A stretch of 51,547 nt of DNA from Bacteroidota bacterium (GTDB lineage: Bacteria; Bacteroidota; Bacteroidia; AKYH767-A; OLB10): the NCBI GenBank assembly GCA_947447155.1, contig CANFIN010000009.1, positions 1-51,547 on the forward strand. The letters run 5' to 3'. Below the pieces are notes generated by a model. It was not told the DNA's origin. It did not search any database and was given only the letters and a program-made list of their open reading frames with translations. Position numbers and translations under genes: made by a program. How positions within the stretch are numbered: the first letter of the stretch is position 1; every line of letters begins with the position of its first letter. This document shows, piece after piece, positions 49,155-51,547 of the stretch.

Positions 49155-49949
49155 ATGCAACAGTACAACAATTTGCTGCGACATGTCATGCAGCATGGAA
49201 CGAAGAAAGAAGACAGAACTGGAACTGGAACTGTAAGCGTGTTTGGTTATCAGATGCGTTTTAATTTGCAAGATGGATTTCCTTTAGTAACAACAAAAAA
49301 AGTTCATACAAAGTCAATCATTCACGAATTACTTTGGTTTTTAAAAGGCGAAACAAATATTAAATATCTAAAAGATAACGGCGTATCAATCTGGGATGAG
49401 TGGGCAGACGAGAAGGGAGACCTTGGTCCTGTTTACGGTTATCAGTGGCGCTCATGGCCTTCTGCAAATGGTGAGCATATCGATCAGATATCACAATTAA
49501 TAGAGCAGATAAAAAAGAATCCTGACTCAAGAAGACTTTTAGTTAATGCCTGGAATGTGAGTGAAATTTCAAAAATGAAATTACCTCCATGTCATATTTT
49601 ATTTCAGTTTTATGTCGCTGATGGTAAATTAAGTTGTCAGTTATATCAACGCAGTGCAGATTTGTTTTTAGGTGTTCCTTTTAATATTGCTTCCTATGCA
49701 TTGCTTACACACATGGTGGCGCAAGTTTGCAATTTAGAAGTAGGTGAGTTTATACATACACTAGGTGATGCGCATATTTACTGCAATCACTTTGAACAGG
49801 TGAACTTACAATTAACGCGTGAGCCTCTACCCTTACCTACTTTAAAGTTAAATCCGGAAGTAAAAAATATTTTTGATTTTACTTACGAAGATATTGCCAT
49901 CGAAAATTATCAGTCGCACCCCGCTATTAAGGCTGTTGTAGCTGTTTAG
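49155..49949 (+). CDS. thyA: Thymidylate synthase
   Basis: 264 aa; [64 protein letters not shown]. Confidence 0.98.
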
Positions 49950-49951
49950 TC

Positions 49952-50452
49952 ATGATAATATCCATCATTGTAGCCTTTGCGAATAATCGCGTGATTGGTA
50001 AAGACAACCAGTTAATTTGGCACCTGCCCAACGACCTTAAACATTTTAAGTCGATTACCAGTGGACATCCTGTGATTATGGGTCGTAAGACTTATGAATC
50101 AATTGGACGCTTATTACCCAACCGTAAAAATATTATTGTTACTCGTAATAGTGAATATCAGCTAGAAGGTGCGCATATTTTTAATTCGTTAGATGCAGCA
50201 ATTATTAGTTGTACTGGCGAAGAAGAAGTTTTTATAATTGGCGGGAGCGAAATTTACGGACATTCGTTGCCGTTAGCCCACAAACTTTACATTACCGAAG
50301 TGCTTCACGATTTTGAAGGCGATGCCTTTTTTCCTGAAATCAATTATGAAGAATGGAAATTAGTGAGCGAAGAGCAAGGTATAATTGATGAAAAGAATAA
50401 GTGGGAGCATCGGTTTAAATTGTATGCCCGTCATTTCGACTACGCTCAGTGA
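49952..50452 (+). CDS. folA: Dihydrofolate reductase
   Basis: 166 aa; IVAFANNRVIGKDNQLIWHLPNDLKHFKSIT...GHPVIMGRKTYESIG; last codons FDYAQ-stop fall inside the first repeat copy. Confidence 0.96.
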   Translation: MIISIIVAFANNRVIGKDNQLIWHLPNDLKHFKSITSGHPVIMGRKTYESIGRLLPNRKNIIVTRNSEYQLEGAHIFNSLDAAIISCTGEEEVFIIGGSEIYGHSLPLAHKLYITEVLHDFEGDAFFPEINYEEWKLVSEEQGIIDEKNKWEHRFKLYARHFDYAQ

Positions 50453-50864
50453 CCGAGCATAAAACCTGCGCGCAGTAACCGATTATAAAACTGGCACTTC
50501 GACTTCGCTCAGTGACCTGTGTATTTATTTCATTGCAATTTATTCGACTTTGCTCAGTACAAAGTTTATCAATTACATTCGGTCACTGAGCGTAGCCGTA
50601 TCTATTTATCTATTCATTCTCGGTTATTTCGACTCCGCTCAATAACCTATTTAAATTACCCTTCTAGGTCACTGAGCGTAGTCGTATCTATTTGTCTATT
50701 CATTCTCGGTTATTTCGACTCCGCTCAATAACCTATTTAAATTACCCTTCTAGGTCACTGAGCTTAGCCGTATCTATTTGTCTATTCATTCTCGGTTATT
50801 TCGACTCCGCTCAATAACCTATTTAAATTACCCTTCTAGGTCGCTGAGCGTAGTCGAAGTGACC
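50435..50864. repeat. Cluster of about ten REP-like hairpin elements in both orientations
   Basis: Forward TTCGACTxCGCTCAxTgACC at ~50435, 50498, 50543, 50628, 50714, 50800; reverse GGTCaCTGAGCgTAGtCG at ~50581, 50667, 50753, 50839. Confidence 0.93.
50581..50838. repeat. Three tandem 86-bp units (50581, 50667, 50753), each with one reverse and one forward element
   Basis: Period exactly 86 bp read from the recurrence of ggtcactgagc; a few substitutions between units; a fourth partial unit starts at 50839. Confidence 0.95.
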
Positions 50865-51220
50865 GTTGTTGAAGTTGTTTCCTGAAACAAGTCGAAAGAA
50901 ACTATCTTATAATTAGTTTCATTTTTACAAGTTGACAATTCTTTCAAAGTTTCTATATCACCTCTTATCAAGGCTGCTTTCTTTTCATTCGACCAACGTT
51001 GTATTTGCTTCTCCCTATTAAAAGCCTTCCAAATTTTATCAAAGGTTTCAAAATAGACTAAACGTACGGGCAAGTGTTTTTTTGTATGATTGGCACCTAA
51101 CCCATCTTGATGCATTTTAACTCGCTTAAATAAATTTATTGTACTTCCTACATAGTATGTATCATTCGAGCACTCCAAAATATACACGTATCCTCGAATT
51201 TGTTTTAGATATGAATTCAT
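50828..51220 (-). CDS. Single-domain GIY-YIG nuclease family protein
   Basis: 130 aa; GYVYILECSNDTYYVGSTINLFKRVKMHQDG...ANHTKKHLPVRLVYFETF...AFNREKQIQRWSNEKKAALI; C-terminal VTSTTLSDLEG encoded by repeat copy 10. Confidence 0.92.
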   Translation of the reverse strand: MNSYLKQIRGYVYILECSNDTYYVGSTINLFKRVKMHQDGLGANHTKKHLPVRLVYFETFDKIWKAFNREKQIQRWSNEKKAALIRGDIETLKELSTCKNETNYKIVSFDLFQETTSTTVTSTTLSDLEG

Positions 51221-51317
51221 TTAATAATTCAAATATTTCTACAAAAATATTTTCATTATTTTAGAGTACGAAAGGTCTAATTGATAATTTAGCGATTAGT
51301 TAATAACTTAATCTAAA

Positions 51318-51547
51318 ATGAAAACCACCAAAACGCTTACTTTTCAGTGGCTAATAACATTAATTCCTATTGTTTATTATTTATCATTATGGAATCTCCT
51401 TCCTGAAGAAGTCCCTACTCATTACGATTTCAATTTACGCCCTGACGATTTTCACTCAAAAGGATTTATGCTTGGAGTGTTAATTTTTATGGGATTGATT
51501 GTAGTTGGAAGTTCAGCCATGATTCTCAATGGCAATTCAATTGATCC
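51318..51547 (+). CDS. DUF1648 / SdpI-like membrane protein (partial, runs off the window)
   Basis: ATG at 51318: MKTTKTLTFQWLITLIPIVYYLSLWNLLPEEVPTHYDFNLRPDDFHSKGFMLGVLIFMGLIVVG. Confidence 0.75.
   Translation, partial: MKTTKTLTFQWLITLIPIVYYLSLWNLLPEEVPTHYDFNLRPDDFHSKGFMLGVLIFMGLIVVGSSAMILNGNSID

Follow-up and report, generated by a model that had tools for sequence, protein, structure and literature searches.

We propose that bacteria carry a widespread REP system that is independent of RAYT, in which a GIY-YIG enzyme recognizes its own hairpin by its C-terminal tail and mobilizes it. We consider this reading likely (probability about 0.7), with cleavage and transposition being inferred. 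The physical association of hairpins and nuclease gene, the cognate matching of tail and hairpin apex, the covariation of the stems, the presence or absence of whole cassettes, and the occurrence of solo copies elsewhere were all shown. The window, that is, the whole stretch of DNA analyzed (contig C9, positions 1-51547), belongs to a genome of 2.46 Mb that is 84.5% complete and consists of 172 contigs.

Results

The nuclease and the hairpin array of the window

The nuclease of the window matched the GIY-YIG family in a Pfam profile search (PF01541, E 7.5e-15, 55 bits against a cut-off of 22.6), and no other Pfam domain was detected in it by this search. The invariant residues of the family, including Y13, Y23, G25, R33, and E70, were present in the alignment columns. 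Structure prediction gave a compact GIY-YIG domain with a pLDDT near 98 over residues 11-90, an extra helix at 89-96, and a disordered C-terminus encoded by a hairpin. The closest solved structures by profile and Foldseek were those of UPF0213 (1zg2/1ywl), followed by SLX1; 1zg2 was matched with E 1e-21 by profile and ranked first in Foldseek. Membership of the UPF0213/SLX1-like group was thus met by the closest solved relatives and the compact single-domain fold. A group I intron endonuclease model matched only weakly, far below its cut-off. An anti-phage defense reading was rejected because a PADLOC search returned no match to defense models.

Ten REP-like hairpin cores lie in 50429-50864, with starts at 50436, 50499, 50544, 50587, 50629, 50673, 50715, 50759, 50801, and 50845; six are intact with paired stems and four are degenerate halves (Table 1). 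The core element of the array is TGAGCGNAG(T/C)CGAA, and no further copy was found elsewhere in the 51.5-kb window. Most of the array is made up of three 86-bp tandem units, each containing an inverted pair. The repeats occupy only the 3′ side of the nuclease gene, up to the convergent DHFR gene; most relatives carry repeats on both sides of the nuclease gene. As shown, hairpin 6 codes for part of the nuclease C-terminus (...TSTTLSDLEG*), and hairpin 1 supplies the final codons of the DHFR-like ORF (...RHFDYAQ*; overlap 50435-50452). Insertion of hairpin 1 has apparently replaced the original stop region of this ORF, whose naming as DHFR rests on its sequence, without a profile search. An Rfam search of 49900-51547 revealed no family over threshold, neither an intron nor any other RNA family, and a structured-RNA reading of the locus was rejected on this basis. 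A sequence-only reading of the window had reported about ten element copies beside and running into a nuclease gene with intact GIY-YIG motif residues. Both points held, the last of the ten cores lying inside the ORF.

Table 1. Features of the window locus and of the insertion sites discussed in the text
Feature	Position or loci	Strand	Description
Dihydrofolate reductase (DHFR)-like ORF	49952..50452	+	Convergent neighbor
Hairpin 1	50429..50454	-	Class A (GGTCACT-GAGCGTAGTCGA-AATGACG)
Hairpin 2	50492..50517	-	Class A
Degenerate core	50544..50556	-	TGAGCAAAGTCGA; unpaired stem
Three tandem copies, period 86 bp	50581..50856	.	Repeat family D1; each a degenerate + half element and an intact - hairpin
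Hairpin 3	50622..50647	-	Class A; perfect 7-bp stem GGTTATT/AATAACC
Hairpin 4	50708..50733	-	Class A; stem GGTTATT/AATAACC, as hairpin 3
Hairpin 5	50794..50819	-	Class A; stem GGTTATT/AATAACC, as hairpin 3
Hairpin 6	50839..50864	+	Class A (GGTCGCT...AGTGACC); inside nuclease ORF 3′ end
Stand-alone GIY-YIG nuclease	50828..51220	-	130 aa; catalytic domain residues 10-80; PF01541 match
Type-A specificity tail	50906..50935	-	STCKNETNYK, pattern C-x-N..; goes with class A hairpins
A-tail/A-hairpin loci at HMG-CoA reductase/GHMP kinase site	L058, L203, L207, L221, L222, L228, L235, L242
Class E cassette interrupting suf iron-sulfur operon	L378, A. lipoferum 4B plasmid AZO_p3, 2370-2986

Hairpins are enriched beside the nuclease gene

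Hairpin density was analyzed at 142 homologous loci from several phyla, counting all apex classes and requiring a paired stem. It was 4.1/kb at up to 500 bp from the gene, compared with 0.092/kb at distances above 1.5 kb, an enrichment of about 45-fold; when only intergenic DNA was considered, the values were 8.1/kb near and 0.32/kb far from the nuclease, an enrichment of 26-fold. Similarly, 60 Bacteroidota regions, each no longer than 20 kb, yielded 97 motif matches at up to 500 bp from the homologous GIY-YIG gene (1.2/kb), whereas about 942 kb of sequence lying more than 1 kb away from it held 18 (0.02/kb); a control motif gave zero matches in these regions. A further 80 loci came from named genomes, among them Cyanobacteria, Gammaproteobacteria, Desulfobacterota, Cloacimonadota, Ignavibacteria, and a relative of Margulisbacteria; in 64 of these loci, the motif lay no more than 700 bp from the nuclease gene. 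Two control gene sets were taken from repeat-rich genomes: a hairpin was found within 1.5 kb of the gene in 1 of 30 Y1_Tnp loci and beside the gene in 1 of 30 loci of other GIY-YIG genes. The adjacency of hairpin and nuclease is thus not due to chance, and it is specific to this nuclease group because neither control set was enriched.

Alternatively, the adjacency could arise from chance or shared insertion hot spots, where repeats and small accessory genes gather in the same intergenic spots. The window repeats do fill a convergent intergenic gap, a usual location of REPs. However, the 26-fold enrichment within intergenic DNA and the two unenriched control sets all but exclude this explanation, and the tail-apex matching described below refutes it. 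The sequence-only reading had proposed enrichment near GIY-YIG genes as a check, which held, and had cautioned that one locus could not exclude chance, which the 142 loci now rule out.

RAYT was rejected as a general partner of the hairpins by the Y1_Tnp count, with exceptions in genomes G162 and G194. The gene next to the window repeats carries PF01541 only, so the Y1 HUH transposase (PF01797) expected beside the repeats in a RAYT/REPtron is absent. In another GIY-YIG subfamily, tandem near-identical copies without these hairpins were observed (G132:C1:1733881-1734727 and G170:C1:135236-136894, the L170 region).

Hairpin stems covary and apices fall into classes

Among 345 distinct copies, stem pairs 1-5 were Watson-Crick in 93/90/88/66/54% of cases, compared with 57/35/41/40/29% when the arms were re-dealt among the copies, showing that the stem pairs covary. 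The frame GAG...CGA was constant, and the stem folded as single-stranded DNA in a folding prediction. Judging from sequence alone, stacking of the GA/AG mismatch pairs on the stem is probable. Loci that had been scored as repeat-free with a first, narrow motif turned out to bear other apex classes (Table 2).

Table 2. Hairpin classes and the nuclease tails that go with them
Class	Apex or hairpin	Tail
A	GAGC-GNA-G(T/C)CGA	C-x-N..H
B	GAGC-NN-GTCGA	KNYTQ/KNR
C	GAGG-NN-CTCGA	AYRD
D	GAGTA-(inner stem-loop)-GTATCGA	KKIF/KKIW
E	CGTC-ATTCCCGC-GAAA-GCGGGAAT-CCA	NPxWxDL(Y/F)

Loci outside these classes were also observed. The tail SRCMKTVLQxNRRN occurred with hairpins TGAGCGAGGAACGAGTCGAA at L218 and L220, possibly a sixth apex class. 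At L291-L312 (Pseudomonadota), tails such as LSKRG or LARRP had none of the five hairpin classes nearby, and more classes may exist.

The nuclease tail matches the hairpin apex

Tail type and dominant apex agreed in 125 of 128 loci, against a mean of 50 and a maximum of 68 in 20,000 shuffles. Since the four classes A-D had been drawn from the training loci themselves, the tail and apex classifiers were fixed and fresh loci from Cyanobacteria, Pseudomonadota, and paralogues were then tested. Agreement was 11 of 12 (A 4/4, B 4/4, D 3/4) among fresh loci with an assigned tail and a hairpin, excluding L263, which is the same gene as training locus L204. Three further tail-B loci of this set had no hairpin, and the fresh loci with short or unassigned tails mostly had none. 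The nearest upstream hairpin, although the entire catalytic domain stands between it and the tail, also matched the tail type in 95 of 101 loci, indicating that the match is not mere linkage.

On a tree of the catalytic domain, 48 changes were needed for the tail and 48 for the apex. Few branches were well supported, and therefore only two independent tail/apex switches could be strictly counted. As tree-based independent contrasts left too few branches for significance, matched pairs were used instead. Of 44 disjoint pairs whose domains are 68-90% identical and whose apices differ, 43 had both members matching their own tails; for example, Aquimarina L214 and L249 have 90% identical domains and bear class A and class C hairpins, respectively. 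The window genome itself holds two such tail/hairpin pairings, namely, the window nuclease (tail A, class A) and a paralogue on contig C4, which has tail C and is followed immediately downstream by two class C hairpins. These results show that apex types A-D each go with a distinct C-terminal tail. Recognition of the apex through the tail is likely, although it is inferred without binding data.

Class E hairpins fit the description of CGTC REPs

A distant GIY-YIG relative (L106) led to the fifth tail/hairpin pairing, class E. Pseudomonadota nucleases ending in NPxWxDL(Y/F) had a class E hairpin within 500 bp in 21 of 30 loci, at which 58 class E hairpins were counted in 30 kb near the gene versus 8 in 45.6 kb far from it, and none in shuffled sequence. 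A 2013 survey described CGTC REPs as having a CGTC head, an 8-9 bp stem starting with AT, and a 4-5 nt loop, and named A. lipoferum and Neisseria among the carriers (PMC3733652). It found no association of these REPs with a transposase gene and no dedicated enzyme, and left the question open (PMC3733652). Class E hairpins share the 8-bp stem starting with AT, the 4-nt loop, and the CCA tail with these REPs, and beyond what PMC3733652 reported, GIY-YIG genes with the NPxWxDL tail are found among the repeats. This arrangement was seen in A. lipoferum and in a Neisseria gonorrhoeae record. CGTC REPs thereby gain a candidate enzyme, a GIY-YIG nuclease in the same genomes, with cutting being inferred. 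At the examined loci of N. aromaticivorans pNL2 and S. meliloti Ak57, no strict CGTC hairpin was found near the nuclease genes. The class A hairpins of the window do not meet the CGTC criteria, as their stems and apex differ and their heads read CGGT or AGGT.

The Neisseria gonorrhoeae record (L381, 1602-3183) is unannotated; its GIY-YIG gene lies within an array of 16 CGTC-type hairpins, which we take to be of the kind called dRS3 in Neisseria.

Hairpins and nuclease gene come or go together

In Flavobacteriaceae, the HMG-CoA reductase/GHMP kinase site carried an A tail with A hairpins in eight loci (Table 1) and, at almost identical offsets, an AYRD tail together with class C hairpins in Pontimicrobium L253 and genome G1029 (L343). 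The flanking genes were kept without the nuclease and without any hairpin in 28 of 30 sampled genomes of the family. In Azospirillum lipoferum 4B, a class E nuclease lies between sufB and sufC with an inverted hairpin pair on each side, and in A. oryzae, A. ramasamyi, and Azospirillum sp. B510, whose flanks are 94-95% identical, sufB-sufC is uninterrupted and has no cassette. As these empty sites lack both parts, hairpins and gene come or go together. It is likely that they arrive as one cassette, which is inferred from the empty sites; transposition itself is also inferred. Most empty-site comparisons show insertion or loss without giving polarity, and most other nuclease loci had no flanking genes in common. 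The nearest flanking hairpins were oriented +/- in 48 of the 89 loci with hairpins on both sides, which is the orientation of the solo inverted pairs in the complete Bacteroidota genome G002.

Two other explanations bear on these sites. In a homing model, the hairpins spread by other means and serve as recognition or landing sites, and the GIY-YIG gene is a selfish, free-standing homing endonuclease. There are many homing endonucleases among GIY-YIG enzymes, repeats exist without a nuclease (G002), and tail-apex matching would also follow from target recognition. However, the nuclease-free HMG-CoA reductase/GHMP kinase and sufB-sufC sites lack the hairpin as well, and no intron or other RNA family exceeded the Rfam threshold at the window locus; we regard this model as unlikely. 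In a hairpin-processing model, a host-type structure-specific nuclease, whose gene stays close to the substrates, clears cruciforms formed by repeats that are immobile or moved by other enzymes. The nearest folds are UPF0213 and SLX1, and the latter is a nuclease of branched DNA. Nevertheless, a clearing enzyme would need neither adjacency, nor apex-specific tails, nor repeated arrival of the cassette in unrelated contexts, making this model very unlikely.

Dispersed copies and co-occurrence across genomes

Exact cores numbered 19 in the whole window genome and were spread over 7 contigs, with 6 at the window locus; a reversed-motif control gave 0 matches in this genome. The cores lie mostly between convergent genes, and none of those outside the window locus adjoins an identified nuclease gene. 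Solo class A copies of this genome have stems TTTGC/GCAAA, unlike those beside the nuclease. Of the 24 genomes that carry the matching tail type (A), 14 had eight or more cores; of the 175 that lack a close homologue, 18 did (Fisher p 3e-7, without correction for kinship). Co-occurrence across genomes, a further check proposed by the sequence-only reading, therefore held but was not absolute. G002 has 243 class A cores, and neither a stand-alone GIY-YIG nor a Y1 transposase was found when this genome was searched.

Most of the sampled G002 cores (L382-L397) formed inverted pairs spaced by 43-52 bp, in which heads read GTCAT and tails ATCT. Separately, two of the three Y1_Tnp (RAYT-like) genes of G162 (L399, L400) and one of G194 (L398) lie about 15-135 bp from a class A hairpin, and RAYTs may thus occasionally make use of these hairpins too.

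A role in cis regulation was also considered, with the hairpins serving the nuclease gene as terminators or mRNA stability elements and the protein perhaps binding them to regulate its own expression. The hairpins do lie at gene ends and can fold, and the protein could bind a hairpin of its own mRNA. However, copies lie upstream as well as downstream and in either orientation, form arrays, and are also scattered next to unrelated genes, and this role is very improbable as an explanation.

Discussion

In the RAYT-independent system that we propose, the gene of a small GIY-YIG endonuclease with a UPF0213/SLX1-like fold would sit in a mobile cassette between hairpins of its own, typically in the order hairpin(+) - gene - hairpin(-). 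The apex of the folded hairpin would be read by the short tail at the C-terminus of the enzyme, a contact that is inferred, and the catalytic domain may nick the hairpin at the apex in a single-stranded or cruciform form, which is also inferred. The nick would let host replication or repair copy the cassette to new places, although nicking as the driver of spread is again an inference, and solo hairpins or inverted pairs would be copied in trans by the same route. GIY-YIG enzymes hydrolyze and are not known to join strands; cassette movement must therefore borrow host machinery, and a homing-like or replication-coupled route is likelier than classical transposition. Points against this reading are genomes with many copies but no matching nuclease (G002), the deviant solo stems, the few supported branches of the tree, and the absence of biochemistry. 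The suggestion of the sequence-only reading that a GIY-YIG enzyme plays a RAYT-like role for a hairpin repeat is supported, with cutting and moving of the hairpin remaining inferred. It did not anticipate the existence of at least five cognate hairpin/tail types, their spread across several phyla, or the connection to CGTC REPs.

A bolder reading is that these elements form a pan-bacterial class of mobile hairpins apart from RAYT/IS200, served by GIY-YIG nucleases with interchangeable tails. It would comprise at least five apex types (GNA-type, two-base type, G..C type, long inner stem, and CGTC type), cover several orphan REP families including CGTC REPs, and amount to a re-pairable protein-to-hairpin code. 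We consider this reading more likely than not.

REPs are among the commonest short bacterial repeats, and only the GTAG kind has an enzyme. If the proposal is true, REPs would have a second way to spread, one without an HUH enzyme, and engineering would gain a compact module that recognizes hairpins. An orphan class of bacterial repeats would obtain a specific and testable candidate enzyme in the same genomes. The natural pairing is unusual, in that a tail of 10-20 residues changes in step with the hairpin apex and has been exchanged many times between near-identical domains. Hairpin-derived protein ends such as LSDLEG, LRLRSA, and FDSAQ, found in many annotated proteins, would also be explained.

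Nothing relevant on the repeat sequence or on GIY-YIG with REP was found in the open-license literature, although a report elsewhere is not excluded. The prokaryotic GIY-YIG proteins of the UPF0213/YhbQ-like, SLX1 type (PMC1564403; PDB 1zg2, 1ywl) have the same catalytic domain and fold; however, no repeat association was found for them in the literature searched, and known hairpins are mostly missing beside stand-alone members whose tail is short or absent. GIY-YIG homing endonucleases of the group I intron type (I-TevI, I-BmoI) belong to the same catalytic superfamily and are likewise mobile genes beside a presumed recognition sequence. In contrast to them, the present nuclease has no intron or intein and no NUMOD (PF01541 being its only Pfam domain), and its presumed target hairpin travels with the gene. 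REP/BIME/REPIN sequences with RAYT (TnpA_REP, a Y1 HUH transposase; REPtrons) are alike in their short, dispersed hairpins, often in inverted pairs, which flank a small nuclease gene and as solo copies outnumber it. The REPtron arrangement of inverted hairpins around the enzyme gene plus dispersed solo copies is met in the family, the window being one-sided only, and the paired-hairpin layout resembles REPIN pairs around RAYT with a different enzyme. Unlike in RAYT systems, the enzyme is GIY-YIG rather than HUH, specificity goes with a swappable C-terminal tail, the apex has GA mismatches with variable inner pairs in place of a plain loop, and the window heads are not the GTAG of RAYT. Outwardly, the layout resembles that of REPtrons, and repeats of class E were catalogued before; what is new is the pairing of enzyme and hairpin.
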